From positions 1 through 42,022 of the forward strand of contig JAIBBQ010000033.1 in assembly GCA_019694595.1 (NCBI GenBank): a DNA stretch of 42,022 bases, read 5' to 3'. Each line of letters begins with the position of its first letter. Within the stretch, counting starts at the first letter, position 1. This DNA is from Myxococcaceae bacterium. GTDB taxonomy: Bacteria; Myxococcota; Myxococcia; Myxococcales; Myxococcaceae. Under the pieces are notes generated by a model. That model was given only the letters and a program-made list of their open reading frames with translations, was not told where the DNA came from and ran no database searches. Positions 2,842 through 29,147 of this stretch are shown here, one piece after another. A program made the translations under genes and the position numbers.

Positions 2842-5124
2842 TCAGGGCGCCGGCTGCTGCTGCGCGCCGCGGATGAGCTGGATGGTCTCGAAGCGCTTGC
2901 GCTCGAGCAGCCGCACTCGCCGGCCGTCGAGCAGCGTGTCGGAGGTCGAGAAGAAGCCGTTCTGTCGCAGGTCGGTGTCGTCCTCGTGGCGGAGCGTGAG
3001 CTTGAGGTCGCCCACTTCCTGCGCCAGCGCCACCAGCTCGACCTCTTCCGGCAGCAGCAGCAGCGACAGGTCGGTGTAGTGCTTGAGCGCCGGGTTCTGC
3101 TGGTAGGCGTTGGTCAGCGGGCTCAGCTTGCCGGTGGTCAAGATGACCACGTTCTGCAGCAGCGTCACCGCGCGGCTCTTCTGCGGGTCGGAAGGGTCCT
3201 TCACCAGGCAGATGAGGTCGACGTGGTCGCTCGGCTGCACCCAGCCGCCGACGGTGGCGGTGGTGCCCACCATCACGCTGGTGGCGCGCGCGTGCTTCTG
3301 GACCCGGGTGCTGAGCCGCTGGCTCGACTTGGCGGTCTCGAACTGGCTCCACAGGAGCGGGTCGCCCGCCTGCACCGGCACCAGCAGCTGCTGGTCGACG
3401 ATGTAGCCGACCGAGTCGGGCTTCACGACGGAAGAGGTGACGAACTGCTCGGGCACCGCGCGAGTGGAGACGAGCTCCTGGGTGATGCGCGCGCCTTCGG
3501 GGATGTCGGCGTTCGCCACCACCACGCTCACCAGCGTCCAGCCGCGCTTCACGGCGTTCGAGGTGCCGGAGACCAGGAGCGCCACCACGCCCGCCGCCAC
3601 CACCGCCAGCGCCGCCGCCACCGCGAAGGGCCAGCGCCCCTGCATGGGGTTGAAGCTCCTGGGCGGCGCCTTCGAAGGCCGCGGGGGCTCAAGCGCGGCG
3701 GCGGTGCGCCAGTCGGCTTCCTTGCTGGCCTCGCGCGCGGCGGCACGCCCGGGCCCCGGCTCGGTGGCCGGCGGCCGCGCCAGCACCGACAGCGGGCGGC
3801 TGTGGGTCTCCGCAGGCGTCGGGTTGATGCCGGTGGGCTCGGCCTCGATGGGCGCGGAGGTGACCGGGTTCATCGGCTTCGACGGCACCTGACGGGTCGG
3901 GGGCGCGTCGTCTTCCAGCGCCGGCGCGGGCCGGGCCGAGAGCACGCTGCGGTCCACCTCCATCGGGCTGAGCGCGGTGAAGTTGGCGGGGACCGCGGCG
4001 GAGCCGGACTTGGCTTCCACCCCCAGGCCCGCGCTCTTGCGAGGGCCGGAGCCGCGGCCGCGCGCGCTCTCGTCGGGCGGCACCGGGCTGGTCGCGCTGG
4101 GCGCGGTGGCCCCGAAGACGGGCGCGGTGGCCTGGGAACGGGTGCCGAGCGCGGGCGGCACGTCGCCGACGCTGGACGCGGTGCGCTCCGGGGACAGGCC
4201 GAAGCTCGCTTCCGCCGGGAGGTTGGCGACGCCGATGGTCTTCACCGCGGTGCCCTGCGCGGCGTGGCCGGCGTCGCGCGGCCCCTTGGCGTCGGGGCGC
4301 ACGTCGGTGAGCGGCAGGAGCGGGGCGCTCTTCGACTGCGGCTCGCGACCGGGAATCGTCGCGCCCTCGCCTTCGTCCGCCGGCACCACCGTCTCGCCGG
4401 TGCCGTGCAGCACCATGCGCACCAGCGAGTTGGTCGGGCGGCGGCCGACCGGCGCCAGGCCTTCGCGGCCGAGCTCGGTCACGCCCCGAGCGGCAGACGG
4501 GGTCTGGTCCTTGTCGCCGGAGCCCGCGAGGCTGAAGCGCAGCGCGGTGAGCTGGTTCTCCAGCGGAATGAGCGCGGGGTGCGGCGTGCCGGCGAGCAGC
4601 CAGAGGTACCCATCGCCCGCGAGCGACAGCTCCTGGCCGTTCAGGCCGCGCACCAGCGCGGCCACCGCCTTCTCGAGGCCCGCGCGCACGTCGGCCTCGG
4701 GCAGCCCGAGCAGCTCGGCGATCTCGAAGCCGGGGATGCCTTCGAGCAGCCGCAGGAGCACCAGCTCGCGCGCGAGCTCGGGCAGCTCGCGCACCCGGGT
4801 GAGCAAGCGGCGGCCCTGGGTGACCAGGGGGTCGGAGTCGGCCTGCTCGACGGCAGCGCCGGTGGAGCGCGCCGACTCGGCGCCCAGGGTGCGCGCGACG
4901 CCGGCGATGCGCTGGCCGAGCTCCGAGTCGTCGCGCAGCTCGTGGAGCCGGAAGAGCACCTGGGCCAGCACCTGGGGCACCAGCGCGGAAGCCACCTGGT
5001 GCGAGACGCGCGAGAGCAGCACGGCGTGCGCGTAGGGCGCGAGCCGTTGCTCGAGCTGCTCGATGGCCGCCACGTCACCCTGCCGGGCCGGAGCGACCAG
5101 CGCGATCCAGTCGGCGTCGGACAT
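2842..5124 (-). CDS. Sigma-factor-like domain fused to CpaB/RcpC-type Flp pilus assembly protein
   Basis: A 760-residue protein with two ends that normally sit in separate proteins. Residues about 10-160 resemble an ECF sigma factor: a helical region-2-like part, then a region-4-like helix-turn-helix ('LPELARELVLLRLLEG' followed by 'EIAELLGLPEADVRAGL'). Residues about 200-495 are a Pro/Ala/Ser-rich linker of low complexity. A single membrane span lies near 500-522. Residues 530-760 match the CpaB/RcpC family: a SAF-type beta-clip segment ('ANADIPEGARIT', 'VPVQAGDPLLWSQFE') and the following CpaB core ('GWVQPSDHVDLI', 'LLQNVVIL'). CpaB proteins line the Flp/Tad secretion channel in the periplasm. 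The topology implied is a cytoplasmic sigma-like head and a periplasmic CpaB tail. No other tad or cpa genes are in the window. The sigma-like part may have lost promoter binding and act only as a protein-interaction module. Confidence 0.8.
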   Translation of the reverse strand: MSDADWIALVAPARQGDVAAIEQLEQRLAPYAHAVLLSRVSHQVASALVPQVLAQVLFRLHELRDDSELGQRIAGVARTLGAESARSTGAAVEQADSDPLVTQGRRLLTRVRELPELARELVLLRLLEGIPGFEIAELLGLPEADVRAGLEKAVAALVRGLNGQELSLAGDGYLWLLAGTPHPALIPLENQLTALRFSLAGSGDKDQTPSAARGVTELGREGLAPVGRRPTNSLVRMVLHGTGETVVPADEGEGATIPGREPQSKSAPLLPLTDVRPDAKGPRDAGHAAQGTAVKTIGVANLPAEASFGLSPERTASSVGDVPPALGTRSQATAPVFGATAPSATSPVPPDESARGRGSGPRKSAGLGVEAKSGSAAVPANFTALSPMEVDRSVLSARPAPALEDDAPPTRQVPSKPMNPVTSAPIEAEPTGINPTPAETHSRPLSVLARPPATEPGPGRAAAREASKEADWRTAAALEPPRPSKAPPRSFNPMQGRWPFAVAAALAVVAAGVVALLVSGTSNAVKRGWTLVSVVVANADIPEGARITQELVSTRAVPEQFVTSSVVKPDSVGYIVDQQLLVPVQAGDPLLWSQFETAKSSQRLSTRVQKHARATSVMVGTTATVGGWVQPSDHVDLICLVKDPSDPQKSRAVTLLQNVVILTTGKLSPLTNAYQQNPALKHYTDLSLLLLPEEVELVALAQEVGDLKLTLRHEDDTDLRQNGFFSTSDTLLDGRRVRLLERKRFETIQLIRGAQQQPAP

Positions 5125-22351: not shown

Positions 22352-23167
22352 TCACCGCGCAGGCGGGCGCAGCGCCGCCTCGAGCTCGACGAGCCCCTGG
22401 ACGAGCTTGGGCCCCGGCTGCAGGAGCGACTTGGTGGGCAGCGCCACCCAGCGCGCGTCGCGCAGGCCGGGCAGCCGCCGCAGCGCCTCGCGCCCTTCCT
22501 GGGTGTCGGACGCCTCGAGCACCACGTCGGGCTTGAGCCGGGCGGCGCGCTCCGCGGAATAGACCGGGTACGGTCCGGCGGCGTCGGCGGCGAGGTTCTC
22601 GGCGCCCACGTCGGCGAGCAGCTCGTGCGCGAAGCTGTGCGGACCCGCCACCACCAGCGGCGCGTACCCGTAGAGCAGGAGCACCTTGAGCTTCTTCTTC
22701 CCGGCCGCGCGCGCGCGCACCTGGCTGCGCTGCGACTCGAGCCGCGCCGCGAGCGCTTCCCCGTCGGCCGGCCGCCCGAGCAGCTGCCCCACGGTGCGCA
22801 TGGCGTCTTCGACGTCGGCCACCGAGGTGAGCGGCAGCGCCACCACGCTGAGGCCCAGGCGGGCCATGTCCTCGGCGGGCCGCTGGTTGCCGGGCGCCTT
22901 CTGCACCAGCACCACCGACGGCTTGAGCGCCACCACCGCTTCCACCGACGGGTCGCTGAAGCCGCCCACGCGGGGGACCTGGGCCACCTCGCTGGCCTCG
23001 TCGAAGCGCGAGACGCCCACCAGCGTGGAGCCGCCGTCGAGCGCCAGCACGGTGTCGGTGAGCGAGGGCGCGACCGTCACCACGCGGGCGACGGGCACCC
23101 TGGGCGAAGGCCCCAGCGTCTGGCCGCCGTCGGCGCCGAGGAGCGCCAGCGCGAGCAGCGCAATCAC
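22352..23167 (-). CDS. btuF: Cobalamin-binding periplasmic protein BtuF
   Basis: A 271-residue protein starting at a GTG that overlaps the upstream stop as GTGA. The signal peptide has no lipobox. It fits the vitamin-B12 and siderophore-type substrate-binding protein fold: 'VVTVAPSLTDTVLALDGGSTLVG' then 'RVGGFSDPSVEAVVALKPSVVL' in the N-lobe and 'KPDVVLEASDTQEG' in the C-lobe. BtuF carries cobalamin from the outer-membrane receptor to the BtuCD importer. The context supports B12: it closes an operon that starts with a cobalamin riboswitch and contains a BtuB-like receptor. BtuC and BtuD genes are not in the window, so they must be elsewhere or replaced by another ABC transporter. The substrate is inferred from context. 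Confidence 0.85.
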   Translation of the reverse strand: MIALLALALLGADGGQTLGPSPRVPVARVVTVAPSLTDTVLALDGGSTLVGVSRFDEASEVAQVPRVGGFSDPSVEAVVALKPSVVLVQKAPGNQRPAEDMARLGLSVVALPLTSVADVEDAMRTVGQLLGRPADGEALAARLESQRSQVRARAAGKKKLKVLLLYGYAPLVVAGPHSFAHELLADVGAENLAADAAGPYPVYSAERAARLKPDVVLEASDTQEGREALRRLPGLRDARWVALPTKSLLQPGPKLVQGLVELEAALRPPAR

Positions 23168-24765
23168 GGCACGGCCAGCACGTCACCCACGTTGGCGATG
23201 CCGGTGACGGAGTCGACCGCGCACGCCTGCACCGGCCCGGCGCCACCCGACAGCCCGCGGCGCTCGGTGAGGACGCCGCCGTCGACGTCGAGCACGAAGA
23301 GGCGGCCGGCGTTCTGGTCGGCCACCCACACCTTGCCGCCCTGCACCGCGAGCCGGCCGGGGAGCGGCGGCGCGCAGCCGGCATCCGCGACGGGGCAGCG
23401 CGCGGCCCAGGTGGAGCGGCGCACCAGCGCGGAGTCGAGCGTCACCACGCCCGCCGCCTCGACGCCCAGCAGCGCGAAGTTGGAGTCGTAGCGCGCGGCG
23501 CCGGAGCAGCTCACCACCAGGCCGTCGCCGGTGGAGGCGAGCCACACCGGGTTGAGGCAGGCGTCGGCGCCCAGGTCCACCACGGTCACCGCGCGGGTGG
23601 CGGGGTCGACGCGCGCGAGGAGCCCGGGGCCCTGCGGCGCGTAGGTGTCGGGGTCGAGGTTGTTGAGCGCGACGAAGAGCGCGCCCTGGTGCGCCACCGC
23701 CGCGAAGGGCCGCGGCACCGGGTGCCCGCCGTCGAAGGCCTTGAGGTCGAGGCCCGCGAGGTCGACGGTGTTCGCGACCTTGGGGTTGGCCGGGTCGCTC
23801 ACGTCGACCTGCACCACCTTCTGGCCAGCGGCCGCGGACGAGGCGCCGAAGCCGCCGTAGAGCGGCACCCAGAGCGAGCCGCCGAGCTTCACCGCGACTT
23901 CCGGGGTGGTGTTGGCGCCGAAGTTGAGCTCGCCCACCGTGCCCAGCGCCACGCCGCCGCTGCCGAGCACGCCGCCGTCGCCGGTGACGCCCGCGTCGTT
24001 GGCGGCGCCCTGCTTCAGGACCTGCAGGGTGTTGGCGCCGGAGTTGACGACGTAGACGAAGGGCGGATCGGCGAGCACGAAGTTGGGCGCCGAGCCGGTG
24101 CGGTTGAGCTGGGGGAACTGGGCGAAGGCGTGGCCGTTGCTCGAGGCGAGCCGCGCCTGGAGCAGCGCACGGTCGATGCCGTCGGCGACGAGCAGCGCCT
24201 CGCCGTAAGTGGCGAGCGCGGCGGGCCCGGAGCCCAGCGGCTCGAGCGGCCCGCGGGTCTGACCGGCCGCCTCCAGGCCGACGACCTGACCGCTGGTGAA
24301 GCAGGCGGCCACCACGTCGAAGCTGCAGCGGCCCTGGTGGCAGGTCTGGGGCGCCTCGCACTTCGCGCCGCAGGTGCCGCAGTTGAGCGCGTCGCGCTGC
24401 AGGTCGACGCACGAATCGCCGCAGCGGCTCGAGGTGCCGAGCGCGCAGCCGGCCTTGCACTGGCTCGCCTCGCAGACCTGGCCCGACGGGCACGCCACGC
24501 CGCAGCCGCCGCAGTTCGCGGGGTCGGACGCGGTCACCACGCAGCGGCCGTTGCACGGGCTGGTGCCTGCCTGGCACACGCACTGGGAGTCGACGCACAC
24601 CTGGCTCGACTGGCAGGCGATGCCGCAGGCGCCGCAGTTGCGGGTGTCGCTCGAGAAGTCGGCGCAGCCGCCGTTGCACTTGGTGGTGCCGGCGCGGCAG
24701 ACCACGTCGTACGACTGACACGCCGGGAGAAGGGCGAGCAGGGCGAGGGCGGTCAGGCGGATCAT
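23164..24765 (-). CDS. B12-operon lipoprotein with Cys-rich repeats and propeller-like domain (BtuG-like)
   Basis: A 533-residue protein. Start ATG overlaps the upstream TGA (TGATG), giving translational coupling. Lipobox Leu-Leu-Pro-Ala-Cys16. Residues about 20-140 contain three about 40-residue Cys repeats ('NCGACGIACQSSQVC', 'NCGGCGVACPSGQVC', 'NCGTCGAKCEAPQTC'). The remaining 380 residues alternate short beta strands in repeats of about 50 residues ('PALATYGEALLVADG', 'FVYVVNSGANTLQVLK', 'GALFVALNNLD'), the look of a YncE-type beta-propeller. In Bacteroidetes the surface propeller lipoprotein BtuG captures cobalamin and passes it to BtuB. A similar role here is inferred from the fold pattern and from its place between the receptor and btuF. 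I have not confirmed the propeller count. Confidence 0.75.
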   Translation of the reverse strand: MIRLTALALLALLPACQSYDVVCRAGTTKCNGGCADFSSDTRNCGACGIACQSSQVCVDSQCVCQAGTSPCNGRCVVTASDPANCGGCGVACPSGQVCEASQCKAGCALGTSSRCGDSCVDLQRDALNCGTCGAKCEAPQTCHQGRCSFDVVAACFTSGQVVGLEAAGQTRGPLEPLGSGPAALATYGEALLVADGIDRALLQARLASSNGHAFAQFPQLNRTGSAPNFVLADPPFVYVVNSGANTLQVLKQGAANDAGVTGDGGVLGSGGVALGTVGELNFGANTTPEVAVKLGGSLWVPLYGGFGASSAAAGQKVVQVDVSDPANPKVANTVDLAGLDLKAFDGGHPVPRPFAAVAHQGALFVALNNLDPDTYAPQGPGLLARVDPATRAVTVVDLGADACLNPVWLASTGDGLVVSCSGAARYDSNFALLGVEAAGVVTLDSALVRRSTWAARCPVADAGCAPPLPGRLAVQGGKVWVADQNAGRLFVLDVDGGVLTERRGLSGGAGPVQACAVDSVTGIANVGDVLAVP

Positions 24766-26687
24766 CACGGCGCCTCCGTAGTCGATGCGATGGCGAGGGG
24801 TACTGTTTTCTTGAGCGGCGACAGCGCGACGCCCAGGGACAGGAAGAAGCCCCGTCCGGGGAGCGGGTAGCCGTCGAGGTCCATGGTCTGCACGTCGAGG
24901 AGGTTGCGCACCTCGGCGGACACGGTGACCGGCCAGGCGAGCGGCAGCTTCGAGCCCAGGCCCACGGTGACCAGCGCGCGCGCCGGGAGCACCACCGCCT
25001 CGGTGCGGTTGGCGTACTGCTCGGACTGCACCAGGAGCTCCGCGCGGGCGCGCAGCCAGCTCGGGCCCACCGAGGCCAGCGCGTGCGCGGCGTGCTGCGG
25101 CCGGTACGGCAGGTGCTTCAGGTAGTAGCGCGGGTCCTCTTTGAGGTTCTGCGCGAGGAGGAAGGTGTAGCTGGCGGCGAGGGAGACGAAGGACGTCGGC
25201 TCCGCGCGGGCCTCGAGCTCCACGCCGAGCGCGCGGGCGTTCTCGAAGTTGTACGGCCGGGCGCGCGACGGCGGGTAGTACTCGTAGGTGATGAGGTCCT
25301 GCGTCCACTGCCCGAAGACCGCGGCCTGGCCGAAGGCGCGCTCGCCGCGCCAGGCGACCGCGGCGTCGGTGGCGAAGGCGCGCTCGGGCCTGAGGAGCGC
25401 GTTGGGCGCCAGGGTACCCTGCTCCACGTAGAGCTCGAGGAAGCTCGGCGGCCGGTGCGCCTGGCCGACGTTGGCGCGCAGCTCGAAGCCCTTGGGCAGC
25501 AGTGCCACCGCGCCGAGGCGAGGGCTCACTCCGAGGAAGGGGCCGGTGACGTCGAGGCGCACCGACGGCACCAGGCTGAAGGCGCCGTCGAAGAAGAGCA
25601 CCTCGTCGCTCACCGAGAGCCCCAGGCGCGCCCACGAGGGCGCGGCGCTCCCGCCCGAGAGCCACTCGCCCGCGAGGCTGAGCGTGCCTTCGAGCCCGTG
25701 GCGCTCGAAGACCAGCCGCCGCGCGGAGAGCTCCACGCCGGCCGCGGCGTCGACCTGCGCCGCCGCCACCGCCGTCAGCCCGCCGCCGCGCAGCGCCAGC
25801 CGGTCGAGCCGCGCCCACGAGAAGAGCGAGAGGTCGCCGCCGCCGTCCAGGTCGCGGGCGAGCCGCAGCCCGCCCAGCCCGTGCGCGGTGGACTGCCGCG
25901 CGTCGGCCGACGGGAGCGCCGCGGGCCCCGCGAGCCCCCGGTCGAGGCCCATGCCTTCGCCCACCACGTCGAGCGAGGTCGGCCCCGAGCGCGCGCGCCA
26001 GGCGAGCAGGCCTCCGCCCTGCGCAGCGTCGTTGTTCGCGCGCGTGCGGCGCTGGAGCGGGTCGCCCGGCAGCGACGGGGTGTCGTCGGCGAGGTAGCCG
26101 AAGTCGCCCGCGGTGCGCGCGCCGTACACCAGGGCCAGCCCTTCGCCCGGCCCCAGGGGCCCGGCGCCGGTGAGGTGGCCCTGGAAGGTACCGAAGCTGC
26201 CGCCCGCCCCTTCCGCCGACAGCTCCACCGCGTCGGTCGGGCGGCGGGTGACGAGGTTCACGGCGCCGCCCAGCGCGCCCGGCCCCAGGCGGCCCGAGGC
26301 ACCGCGCAGCACCTCGACGCGGTCCACCAGCGGCGCGGGGATGAGCGAGAGGTCGGTGGAGGCGCCGGTGGCGCCCAGGGGGATGCCGTCGAGCAGCACC
26401 AGCACCCCGTTGCTCGAGGCGCCGCGCAGCGACACGGTCTGCCGCTGGAGCAGCCCGGCGCTCGACTGGGTGGCGACACCGGGCGCGGTGGCGAGGAGGG
26501 CGGCGACGTCCTTGCCTTCGCCCGCGTGCTCGTTCGCGTCGATGGTGGTGGTGACGGCGGTCGGCTCGCGGCGGGCCGTGGGCGACGGCTCCGCGGGCGG
26601 CGCGGGCACGTCGACCGGCGGCAGCACCGCGTCCTGCGCGGCGGCGCCGAAGGACACCAGGGCGAGCGCGGCGGCGAGGTGCTTCAA
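24765..26687 (-). CDS. btuB: TonB-dependent cobalamin outer-membrane receptor (BtuB-like)
   Basis: A 640-residue outer-membrane receptor starting at a TTG (26687) that overlaps the upstream stop as TTGA, with GGAGG eight bases before it. The signal peptide ends Ala-Ala-Ala-Gln. A TonB-box-like Thr-Ala-Val-Thr-Thr-Thr-Ile region lies near residue 45. The plug is at about 50-160 ('QTVSLRGASSNGVLVLLDGI', 'LVDRVEVLRGASGRLGPGAL'), and the 22-stranded barrel signatures follow ('NVGQAHRPPSFLELY', 'PERAFATDAAVAWRG'), with a terminal aromatic-rich strand. The length is near that of E. coli BtuB. Cobalamin as substrate is inferred from the riboswitch and btuF; the sequence itself only shows a TonB receptor. 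It would draw energy from TonB-ExbBD, not present here. Confidence 0.88.
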   Translation of the reverse strand: MKHLAAALALVSFGAAAQDAVLPPVDVPAPPAEPSPTARREPTAVTTTIDANEHAGEGKDVAALLATAPGVATQSSAGLLQRQTVSLRGASSNGVLVLLDGIPLGATGASTDLSLIPAPLVDRVEVLRGASGRLGPGALGGAVNLVTRRPTDAVELSAEGAGGSFGTFQGHLTGAGPLGPGEGLALVYGARTAGDFGYLADDTPSLPGDPLQRRTRANNDAAQGGGLLAWRARSGPTSLDVVGEGMGLDRGLAGPAALPSADARQSTAHGLGGLRLARDLDGGGDLSLFSWARLDRLALRGGGLTAVAAAQVDAAAGVELSARRLVFERHGLEGTLSLAGEWLSGGSAAPSWARLGLSVSDEVLFFDGAFSLVPSVRLDVTGPFLGVSPRLGAVALLPKGFELRANVGQAHRPPSFLELYVEQGTLAPNALLRPERAFATDAAVAWRGERAFGQAAVFGQWTQDLITYEYYPPSRARPYNFENARALGVELEARAEPTSFVSLAASYTFLLAQNLKEDPRYYLKHLPYRPQHAAHALASVGPSWLRARAELLVQSEQYANRTEAVVLPARALVTVGLGSKLPLAWPVTVSAEVRNLLDVQTMDLDGYPLPGRGFFLSLGVALSPLKKTVPLAIASTTEAP

Positions 26688-27397
26688 AAGGCGCCTCCGT
26701 CGAGGCGCTGCCCGTGCACCACCGCGACCGCGTCGAGGTCGAAGCCGGCGGTGGGCGAGCCCGTGGGGTTGTGGCCGGTGTCGGTGATGCGGACGAAGCG
26801 CGCGCGCGTCACCCCGAGCTGCGCGAGGTCGAAGAGGTCGCCGCCCGAGCGCAGCGGGTCGGTCGCGGTGCCGCTGTCGGCGGTGGCCAGCACCGGCTGC
26901 ACGCCGGCACAGCCCGGGTAGCCGCCGTCGCGGTCGAGGCTGGCGCAGGGGAACTCGTGCCAGCTCGTCCCGTCGTCGCTCACCGCGACCGCGGCGGTCT
27001 CCGCGAAGCGGCCGAAGGGGTTCTCGAAGACGGTGAGGTCGGGCCCCGGCCCGTCGACGGCGAGGACGTCGGTGAAGGCGAGCACGATGACGCCGCCCTG
27101 CCCCAGCGAGAGCACGTCGAGCGAGCCCATGCCGTCGCCGGCGCCGTCCGGCGGCCCCAGCACCACGCCGGGCAGCCGGTCCTGGCCGAAGCCCGCGCCG
27201 GGGCCAGGGGTGAAGGAGACCACCGCGTCGGCGAAGGGGTCGTCGCCGCGCACCGGCCCCGCGTCCGCCGTCGTCCCTCCGCCTCCGCCCACGCCGCCAC
27301 CGGAGGCGTCGCCGCCGCCGGCGCCACCGGCCCCCCCGCCCGGACCGCAGGCGAGGAGTACGGTGGCCAGCACGCCCATGAGGGCGCGCGCGCTCAC
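26684..27397 (-). CDS. Surface lipoprotein of the cobalamin operon
   Basis: A 237-residue protein starting at a GTG that overlaps the upstream stop as GTGA. Lipobox Val-Leu-Leu-Ala-Cys17, then a Gly-rich linker to about residue 50. The mature domain opens 'AVVSFTPGPGAGFGQDRLPG', then 'GSLDVLSLGQGGVIVLAF', 'GPGPDLTVFENPFG' and 'VAVSDDGTSWHEFPC', a beta-rich pattern seen in 'cell surface proteins' that accompany cobalamin receptors in other phyla. Ligand-facing residues cannot be assigned. It is followed by the TonB receptor through a 4-base overlap. The likely role is to bind or pass cobalamin at the outer surface; this is inference from operon context and recalled family pattern. Confidence 0.72.
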   Translation of the reverse strand: MSARALMGVLATVLLACGPGGGAGGAGGGDASGGGVGGGGGTTADAGPVRGDDPFADAVVSFTPGPGAGFGQDRLPGVVLGPPDGAGDGMGSLDVLSLGQGGVIVLAFTDVLAVDGPGPDLTVFENPFGRFAETAAVAVSDDGTSWHEFPCASLDRDGGYPGCAGVQPVLATADSGTATDPLRSGGDLFDLAQLGVTRARFVRITDTGHNPTGSPTAGFDLDAVAVVHGQRLDGGAF

Positions 27398-28770
27398 GGC
27401 AGTTTGAGCCTCAGGAGGCGGCGGCCGTTCTTGTCCTCGACGCCGAGGAGCAGCGCGGTGCCGTGCGCCGCGAGGAACTGCACGTTGGTGCACCCGTCGC
27501 TGGTGAGGAGCGTGGAGAGCGCGCCCACCGAGACGCCGGCGTCGGTGACGGTCACCGGCACCAGGCTCACCTCCGAGGTCTTCGGCAGGAAGGTGTTGGG
27601 GTCGAACATGCCGCGGTGGAGCACCACGGTGTCGCCCACCCCGGCGGCCTCGAAGAGGTCCTCACCGCTGTAGACGAGCGGCGCGCCGACGAGGCTCTGC
27701 ACGGTGCTCTGCTGGAAGGCGGCCTTCACCTGCGCCGGCGAGAGCGCCCGGAGGTTGTTGGTGAAGTCGTTGCCGTTGAAGTACCCGGCGAGCACCGCGC
27801 CGTTGGCGGTCGATGCCATCACGCCGCTCGACGGGCTCGCCGCGGGGTCGAAGCTCGCCACCTTGGTGGGCGGGGTGGTGCCGAGGCCGTAGACGCCGAC
27901 GCCGGCATCGACGCCGCCGGCGCCGAGCGCGTTCACCAGCACGCCGAAGCTGGACGCGGCCGCGGAGTAGTTCCCCGGCGCGGAGGTGTGCTTGAGCGTG
28001 TCGTAGAAGAAGTCGTACTCCGCCACCGTGCCGGGGAAGCCGGAGCCCGAGCGCGTGTAGCCGGCGAAGAGCCGGGTGTCGGTGCTGACGAGGAAGTGCG
28101 ACGGGTAGACGCCCGCGTCCTGGTCGGCGGCCGTCTTGACGCTCAGGCCCGCGTCGCCGAGCGCGAGGTTGGGGAAGGTGCCCAGCTTCTCGAGGCGCGC
28201 GCTGGTCATCAGCGCCCAGAGGTCGCCCGGGCCGCCGTCGGCGCCCGGGGTGGTGGCCAGGGTCTCGATGCCCGCGGGGAGCGCCGCGGAGCCCAGCACG
28301 GTGACGCCGCTGCCCAGCACCAGCCGGCCGAGCACCGCGTCGTGGGGCAGCTGCGCGCAGGTCTGCCCTCCGTCGCCGCTGCCACCGCCGCTGCCGCCAC
28401 CGGAGCCCGCGGAGCCACCGCCGCTCGACGACGTGCCGCCGCCGCTCGACGACGCTCCGCCGCCGCTGGAGGCGCTGCCGCCGCCCGAGGCGCCGGTGCC
28501 GCCCCCGGTGCCGCCGATGCGCGGCGAGCACGCGCGGTTGTCGCAGCGCTCGGTCATGCTGCACACCGCGCAGACTCCGCCCGCGCGCGGGCCGCACGCG
28601 TCCTCGGAGATGCCGCCGCGACAGACGCCCTTGTCGTCGCAGCAGCCTTCGGGGCAGGAGGTCGCGTTGCACGCCCCGCCCCCCGAGGTTCCGCACGACG
28701 GCGAGAGCGCCGCCAGAAGGCCGAGAGACAGTCCAGCGGCCATGCCCCACCACGTCGACTTCGCGTCCAT
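27394..28770 (-). CDS. First gene of the cobalamin operon: Cys-rich lipoprotein with long Gly/Ser linker
   Basis: A 458-residue protein. ATG 28770 is preceded by AGGAG at a five-base spacing. The signal peptide ends in Leu-Ser-Pro-Ser-Cys26, a slightly unusual lipobox. Residues about 30-80 have twelve cysteines ('CNATSCPEGCCDDKGVC', 'CAVCSMTERCDNRAC'), then a Ser/Gly-rich linker (repeats of Ser-Ser-Gly-Gly-Gly) to about 135, then a beta-rich domain with segments such as 'DLWALMTSARLEKLG', 'VLAGYFNGNDFTN' and 'ALLLGVEDKNGRRLLRL', which might also be a propeller. It is the only gene of the operon with its own ribosome site far from an upstream stop, so the riboswitch is expected to act on this start and through coupling on the rest. 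Confidence 0.75.
   Translation of the reverse strand: MDAKSTWWGMAAGLSLGLLAALSPSCGTSGGGACNATSCPEGCCDDKGVCRGGISEDACGPRAGGVCAVCSMTERCDNRACSPRIGGTGGGTGASGGGSASSGGGASSSGGGTSSSGGGSAGSGGGSGGGSGDGGQTCAQLPHDAVLGRLVLGSGVTVLGSAALPAGIETLATTPGADGGPGDLWALMTSARLEKLGTFPNLALGDAGLSVKTAADQDAGVYPSHFLVSTDTRLFAGYTRSGSGFPGTVAEYDFFYDTLKHTSAPGNYSAAASSFGVLVNALGAGGVDAGVGVYGLGTTPPTKVASFDPAASPSSGVMASTANGAVLAGYFNGNDFTNNLRALSPAQVKAAFQQSTVQSLVGAPLVYSGEDLFEAAGVGDTVVLHRGMFDPNTFLPKTSEVSLVPVTVTDAGVSVGALSTLLTSDGCTNVQFLAAHGTALLLGVEDKNGRRLLRLKLP
28374..28505 (-). repeat. Ser/Gly-coding low-complexity tract
   Basis: Short in-frame repeats coding Ser-Ser-Gly-Gly-Gly and related units (period 18 bases) form the linker between the Cys-rich head and the C-terminal domain of the first cobalamin-operon lipoprotein. 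Confidence 0.7.
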
Positions 28771-28775
28771 GACGA

Positions 28776-28931
28776 CTCCTGCCAGGGCGCCCGACGCACC
28801 CTGCCGTGAAGGAGCCGCCGCGTGGCGGGACACCGGAGGCACTCGCGGGGAGCGAACGACGCAGTCGCGAAGGCCACCGGCACCTCCCCGCGGAGGCTCC
28901 GGAATGTCCGCCACGCACACGCGTGGCGCAC
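28776..28931 (-). promoter_or_regulatory. Expression platform of the cobalamin riboswitch
   Basis: Between the riboswitch core and the start of the first gene lie several competing pairings. CGCCACGC (28928-28921) and GCGTGGCG (28916-28909) form an eight-pair hairpin with a GTGT loop. The same GCGTGGCGGAC segment (28916-28906) can instead pair with GTCCCGCCACGC (28831-28820) with one bulge. A CTCCT at 28814-28810 is complementary to the AGGAG ribosome site at 28780-28776. This is consistent with a switch that exposes or hides the ribosome site. No T-run follows, so translational rather than transcriptional control is more likely. Pairing is seen; the regulatory effect is inferred. Confidence 0.5.
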
Positions 28932-29095
28932 CACGGCAGGTCTTCGGACTCGCAGGCTGCCTACTGACCGTCGCTTCCCAGCCCATGAGGAGGCCAGTGC
29001 GTGTGACGGCGTTCGTTCCTGCTCACCGCTGCGGGGCAGTCCCGGATTCACACCGGGGTTCCCTCTTGCCCTCACCGAGACGCCTCATCGGCGCC
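28932..29095 (-). promoter_or_regulatory. Cobalamin (adenosylcobalamin-class) riboswitch
   Basis: The minus strand carries the hallmark blocks of the cobalamin riboswitch in order. GAGGGAACCCCGGTGTGAAT, continuing into CCGGGACTGCCCCGCAGCGG, spans 29065-29026 (the B12-box-type conserved core). GCACTGG lies near 29000-28994, GGGAAG near 28979-28974, and GAGTCCGAAGACCTGCC at 28951-28935 is the characteristic 3' block. It lies 160 bases before the first gene of a B12 uptake operon. In known cases, binding of cobalamin lowers expression of the genes downstream. The exact 5' edge and helix P1 are approximate. Confidence 0.95.
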
Positions 29096-29118
29096 GCGAG
29101 GAGACCGTGGCGGTGAGG

Positions 29119-29147
29119 GGCGTAGTCAAAAGGGCGAGGCGGGTCAA
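29119..29147 (-). promoter_or_regulatory. Putative promoter of the cobalamin operon
   Basis: TTGACC at 29147-29142 is followed by a 17-base spacer and TACGCC at 29124-29119. The -35-like box is good and the -10-like box is weak, as is common in GC-rich genomes. It lies just before the riboswitch, where a promoter is needed. Confidence 0.4.

Follow-up and report, generated by a model that had tools for sequence, protein, structure and literature searches.

A riboswitch-led operon of a Myxococcaceae bacterium with a divergent BtuH homolog and a predicted propeller lipoprotein: probable B12 capture at the outer membrane

The DNA analysed here, hereafter the window, comprises 42,022 nucleotides of a Myxococcaceae bacterium (positions 1 to 42,022 of contig JAIBBQ010000033.1, assembly GCA_019694595.1), whose minus strand carries a cobalamin riboswitch followed by genes for three lipoproteins (L1, L2 and L3), a BtuB-like receptor and a BtuF-like binding protein. 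This operon quite probably encodes a cobalamin-repressed system that scavenges vitamin B12 (cobamides) at the outer membrane and is built like the BtuB-BtuG-BtuH system of Bacteroides. A comparable surface capture system had been proposed for this myxobacterium in an earlier note based on the bare sequence, and the proposal is now supported by the predicted propeller of L3, the homology between L2 and the BtuH B12-binding domain, and the association of L2-type genes with cobalamin riboswitches in many other genomes. By analogy with Bacteroides, the proteins would bind B12, be exposed at the cell surface and form a complex.

The operon and the host's need for B12

The operon elements are given below with their window coordinates; along the minus strand, their order is riboswitch, L1, L2, receptor, L3 and BtuF.

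28918..29124, minus strand: cobalamin riboswitch aptamer (RF00174; 96.6 bits, E = 5e-23), operon leader
27394..28770, minus strand: L1, lipoprotein containing a Gly/Ser linker; its C-terminal domain (about residues 136-458) is conserved
26684..27397, minus strand: L2, lipoprotein with a folded domain (residues 52-235), a shortened homolog of the BtuH B12-binding domain
24765..26687, minus strand: BtuB-like TonB-dependent outer-membrane receptor
23164..24765, minus strand: L3, lipoprotein; residues 1-147 form a Cys-rich STIG1/MXAN_6577-type domain, residues 148-533 a predicted propeller
22352..23167, minus strand: BtuF-like periplasmic B12-binding protein of an ATP-binding cassette (ABC) importer

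The riboswitch match spans the full Rfam covariance model (positions 1-189), with a score far above the gathering score of 31.5 bits, and is the sole cobalamin riboswitch found in this 99% complete genome. A GGAG Shine-Dalgarno sequence lies about 5 nucleotides ahead of the ATG of L1 at 28770, and all four gene junctions are 4-base-pair stop/start overlaps (GTGA, TTGA, ATGA and GTGA, from L1 to BtuF). Lipoprotein-type N-termini were recognized by inspection on L1, L2 and L3, the lipobox of L1 (SPSC) being imperfect in the window protein and canonical in several relatives. The receptor carries Plug and barrel domains and has BtuB as its best match among solved structures (E = 3e-16); it is termed BtuB-like only, because its score with the best NCBIfam model, the curated TIGR01779, is 103 bits for a cut-off of 599.7. 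In the same way, the product of the last gene has a Peripla_BP_2 domain and, among solved structures, matches E. coli BtuF best (E = 2e-24); it is called BtuF-like since it reaches 94 bits with the curated model NF002894, whose cut-off is 234. The textbook riboswitch, the five coupled genes, the three lipoproteins, the BtuB-like receptor and the BtuF that the earlier note had read from this stretch are thus all borne out, as is the absence of BtuC and BtuD from the operon.

Receptor, periplasmic binding protein and riboswitch are shared with the E. coli BtuB-BtuF-BtuCD system, which differs in having no accessory lipoproteins and from which the present genome differs in the placing of its transporter genes. 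A BtuC ortholog is found on another contig (C258, L129:5238-6251) and is 50-55% identical to the BtuC that follows BtuF in relatives. This gene encodes the genome's only strong FecCD permease and lies beside dapD/dapE-like genes, with no adjoining gene for an ATPase or a binding protein.

As for the need for B12, the host genome encodes the B12-dependent methionine synthase MetH, while CbiC, a marker of corrin-ring synthesis, was not found in the genome and GATase_3 is represented by a weak fragment only. The host therefore very probably depends on imported corrinoids; judged by its gene content, it probably cannot make B12 and must import it, an indication of B12 dependence among predatory soil bacteria.

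L2 and the B12-binding domain of BtuH

The sequences of the L2 relatives are strongly conserved, and an AlphaFold2 model of L2 built from 57 of them has a predicted local distance difference test (pLDDT) score mostly above 90 over residues 52-235. With both Foldseek and VIA-align, the two best Protein Data Bank (PDB) matches of this model are the B12-binding domain of Bacteroides thetaiotaomicron BtuH2 (7BIZ) and the BtuH domain fused to BtuG1 (8BLW). VIA-align gives a Z-score of 13.6 for 7BIZ (root-mean-square deviation 3.5, 155 residues aligned) and of 12.8 for 8BLW_B (root-mean-square deviation 2.7, 155 residues aligned), the next match being at 10.2, and Foldseek gives E = 2.5e-4 for 8BLW_B. 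The BtuH B12-binding domain has been described as having low structural similarity to any other known structure (PMC8941943).

PDB sequence searches with L1, L2 and L3 and with their profiles returned nothing useful, and no Pfam or NCBIfam family reached its cut-off with L2; the link to BtuH was reached solely through structure and through a bridge protein that surfaced when 179 Myxococcota genomes were searched with the L2 profile. This bridge, a lipoprotein encoded by a same-family genome (L167, 3274-4728, plus strand) behind a cobalamin riboswitch (3021-3223), combines a Cys-rich STIG1-type domain with PKD and full-length BtuH domains. The L2 profile detects it with E = 7e-11, and its own matches to the solved structures have E values of 6e-47 for 8BLW and 6e-40 for 7BIZ. 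In profile-profile comparison with hhalign, the two solved BtuH sequences alone align to the L2 family with a probability of 84.6 (E = 7e-6), rising to 95.8 (E = 7e-9) for the two Bacteroides sequences plus the bridge, whereas the same BtuH profile gives at most 0.2% with L1, L3 and other propellers. As judged from the profiles and the model, L2 is a divergent, shortened homolog of the BtuH B12-binding domain. Of the two further lipoproteins to which no role had originally been ascribed, only L1 thereby remains without one.

What has been kept and what has been lost in L2 can be read from the ligand contacts of BtuH2, in which Asn399 contacts the phosphate and Phe401 the lower ligand, while His476, Tyr510, Trp511 and Trp577 hold the corrin amides (PMC8941943). 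Once the published numbering had been checked on the BtuH2 sequence (all eight listed residues fit with a single offset), the Asn399-x-Phe401 motif was found to align to N126-x-F128 of L2, and the Asn is invariant over the 22 rows of the alignment, 18 of which also have the Phe. The stretch holding the four corrin contacts is missing from L2, which may therefore bind weakly, differently or not at all, and is for this reason called a BtuH homolog rather than BtuH. In summary of the comparison, L2 resembles BtuH (BtuH2, 7BIZ; C-terminal domain of BtuG1/BtuGH, 8BLW) in its fold, profile homology, Asn-x-Phe motif and lipoprotein signal, and both are encoded together with a btuB-like gene in an operon controlled by a cobalamin riboswitch. 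L2 differs from BtuH as a stand-alone domain of about 185 residues, preceded by a lipoprotein signal and linker only, that has neither the N-terminal PKD/immunoglobulin-like domains of BtuH2 nor the corrin-contacting second half; full PKD and BtuH domains together are found only in the bridge. Considering the motif that is retained, L2 probably works like part of BtuH.

The genomic setting of L2-type genes points in the same direction. Rfam scanning of 19 neighbourhoods from related genomes placed a cobalamin riboswitch directly upstream of L1-L2 in 15 of them, the contig ending at that point in two of the other four. When 75 L2 loci from public genomes were scanned with a model built from the riboswitches of the relatives, 53 of the 65 untruncated loci had a same-strand riboswitch within 3 kilobases (kb) upstream, and two of the other twelve, from WOR-3 and Omnitrophota, had one farther away (3.7 and 5.6 kb). 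Four divergent loci, whose L2-like genes are detected at E values around 1e-24, extend far enough upstream for an independent Rfam scan, and each has a riboswitch immediately ahead of the gene. Since a multi-megabase genome contains only a handful of these elements, chance alone is estimated to place one there in well under one per cent of loci. An association of these lipoproteins mainly with loci devoid of riboswitch or B12 genes had been looked for, and the reverse was found: they are conserved mainly in loci that have both.

These data bear on the alternative that L1 and L2 are B12-regulated surface proteins with a job unrelated to the vitamin, for instance the Ca2+-dependent binding of glycans or prey surfaces. 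The fold class of L2 includes many carbohydrate-binding modules, and F5/8C-like folds often bind glycans. The loss of the corrin contacts would fit such a role as well, and so would a resemblance to a Leptospira lipoprotein: 54 of the 57 L2 relatives match the LIC_13355 model (NF033170; best E = 1.8e-15), albeit below its cut-off, and the Leptospira protein has been studied as a possible adhesin, for binding to host components, in a paper that does not mention B12. The two best structural matches of L2 are nonetheless BtuH domains, clearly ahead of glycan-binding modules, the phosphate-contacting Asn and the lower-ligand Phe are retained, and the riboswitch association is near-constant across distant lineages, so that a non-B12 function appears highly improbable. 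Window L2 itself scores 22 bits with NF033170, far below the curated cut-off of 120, and the Leptospira protein may conversely belong to the BtuH-like group. A likely function is thereby proposed for the L2 family, which has no Pfam entry.

The propeller lipoprotein L3

The first 147 residues of L3 form a Cys-rich MXAN_6577/STIG1-type domain according to Pfam and NCBIfam scans, which give only weak NHL/LVIVD traces for the rest of the protein. For this remainder, in which a YncE-like propeller pattern had been noticed from the sequence, an AlphaFold2 prediction that could have shown no propeller in 23164-24765 produced one: aligned with 19 relatives, it is modelled as an all-beta structure with regular strand repeats, with a pLDDT of 83 and a predicted template modelling (pTM) score of 0.88. 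The model therefore supports L3 as a propeller lipoprotein, very likely seven-bladed because its structural matches are.

How closely this predicted propeller is related to BtuG is less clear-cut. BtuG1 and BtuG2 stand second and fourth in the Foldseek list, and L3 resembles BtuG (Bacteroides; 8PTD, 8PTF, 8OKV, 8BMX) as a propeller lipoprotein encoded beside a btuB-like gene. On the other hand, VIA-align ranks an archaeal surface-layer YVTN propeller and 6-phosphogluconolactonases (Z = 33) above BtuG (Z about 30), PDB sequence searches with L3 and its profile gave no sequence link to BtuG, and the Cys-rich N-terminal domain also sets L3 apart. A sequence bridge of the kind that served for L2 was sought with a propeller lipoprotein from locus L162, which had no significant PDB match. 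By sequence, the predicted L3 propeller is thus not specifically BtuG, and structurally it ties with other YVTN/phosphogluconolactonase propellers.

These same scores are what favours a second alternative, in which the operon serves B12 import with L2 and the receptor alone handling the vitamin, L3 being a generic structural or enzymatic propeller lipoprotein of the YVTN/lactonase type and no BtuG-type lid. The gene context is harder to accommodate in this way, since in 18 of 21 other L3-holding loci the L3 gene comes immediately after that of the receptor, and L2-type genes of other clades (L162, L166, L109 and L123) repeatedly have a propeller-like lipoprotein gene next to them, a pairing expected of a BtuG-like partner. 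Together with the Foldseek ranks of BtuG1 and BtuG2, this makes the generic propeller rather unlikely.

A proposed capture route, its spread and its partner lipoproteins

In Bacteroides, BtuG and BtuH are surface lipoproteins (PMC6143338, PMC10404256), BtuG acting as a lid on BtuB and BtuH having been proposed to help load it (PMC10404256). Transposed to the operon of the window, falling cellular B12 would lead the riboswitch to permit expression, and L2, possibly with L1, would be anchored to the outer membrane and capture cobamides there, the invariant Asn of the L2 Asn-x-Phe motif holding the phosphate of the nucleotide loop. The L3 propeller would then cap the BtuB-like receptor as a lid or pass the vitamin on to it, passage through the receptor would be driven by TonB, and BtuF would deliver the vitamin to the BtuC permease encoded elsewhere in the genome.

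The side of the outer membrane on which the lipoproteins reside matters for this route, as they could instead sit on the periplasmic face and buffer B12 or hand it over between receptor and BtuF. A lipoprotein signal by itself does not determine the leaflet, which leaves room for this arrangement. The surface location of BtuG and BtuH in Bacteroides speaks against it, and so do two L2 relatives from other phyla that bear type IX secretion tails. Such tails send proteins outside the cell, and they argue for an extracellular place. A periplasmic role is accordingly considered quite improbable.

Several further observations weigh against surface capture under riboswitch control, besides the lost corrin contacts of L2 and the equally good or better matches of L3 to propellers other than BtuG. 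The 148-nucleotide leader contains no obvious terminator and no sigma-70-type promoter pattern. BtuD, the ABC ATPase, was not identified, and BtuC lies apart from the operon. In addition, L1 matches no family in Pfam or NCBIfam scans and has no assigned function, and 12 of the 65 untruncated L2 loci are without a riboswitch within 3 kb.

L2-type genes are widely distributed. In the sample of Myxococcota, which leans towards close relatives, the L2 profile finds them in 95 of 179 genomes and 34 of 83 genera, and they also occur in Sumerlaeota, WOR-3 and Omnitrophota, mostly under a cobalamin riboswitch; viral contigs and plasmids searched for L2 yielded no relatives. As no report of BtuG/BtuH-type B12 capture outside Bacteroidota was found in the literature searched, this type of capture looks far more widespread than reported (gut Bacteroidota). 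A plausible, still tentative extension is that propeller plus BtuH-type surface capture represents an old modular strategy, present in about half of the sampled Myxococcota and in some Sumerlaeota, WOR-3 and Omnitrophota. A reduced "mini-BtuH" would recognise only the nucleotide-loop side of the cobamide, and lineage-specific partner lipoproteins (L1, a CGGFxWT module family, propellers) would supply the rest of the binding surface. The invariant Asn and the lost corrin-contacting half in any case yield a direct prediction on how the smallest B12-grasping domain would work.

In relatives, among them Myxococcus xanthus, the operon of the window is often found as two units. Of 20 neighbourhoods taken from related genomes, 19 have L1 and L2 together. 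The second unit, mostly located immediately upstream of riboswitch-L1-L2 and often with its own riboswitch, comprises the receptor and L3, in many cases along with BtuF and BtuC. L1 adjoins L2 on the upstream side for 45 of 86 L2 genes and is restricted to a Myxococcaceae-like group (34 of 75 loci). Profile scans give weak Kelch/YjhT hints for L1; it has no detectable relationship to L3, and self-comparison of the L1 and L3 profiles revealed no clear internal repeats, so that a propeller in L1 is unproven. BtuJ (DUF4465) and BtuK of Bacteroides are likewise accessory B12-binding lipoproteins of riboswitch-controlled loci, and DUF4465/BtuJ, a B12-binding family different from BtuH, has been reported from Myxococcota among others (PMC13398666). 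This identity was rejected for L1 and L2, as no DUF4465 (PF14717) match was obtained in the window proteins or in 30 related genomes.

Outside the range of L1, the place between riboswitch and L2 is taken in about ten loci by a small lipoprotein with a W...FGG...YC...GCGGFxWT module, and in L109 and L123 by a gene whose product looks like a propeller. Lipoproteins with one or more such GCGGFxWTxL modules, which have no Pfam entry, lie directly upstream of L2 in non-Myxococcaceae, mostly behind a riboswitch, and are possibly a further B12-related family. Their positions are as follows.

L052:3636-4538, L059:7790-8914, L085:7412-8710, L089:7619-8866, L093:7607-8836: GCGGFxWTxL-module lipoproteins
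L107:5080-5637, L108:8336-8827, L111:4086-4748, L114:2186-2665, L116:22-495: GCGGFxWTxL-module lipoproteins

Other variations were observed around L2-type genes. Corallococcus-type genomes (L044, L047, L053, L060, L061, L063, L065, L066, L070 and L074) have two L1-L2 pairs, each with its own cobalamin riboswitch, and in Myxococcus-type loci L2 directly overlaps at its end with the gene of a small Rieske [2Fe-2S] protein (L082:9579-10118, L055:9606-10157). One divergent L2-type gene lies next to a pair of cobalamin riboswitches arranged back to back on opposite strands (L165:316-444 and 503-715). Finally, a 1350-residue beta-helix protein with matches to the BtuH profile is encoded just behind a cobalamin riboswitch in Omnitrophota (L125:3397-7449).

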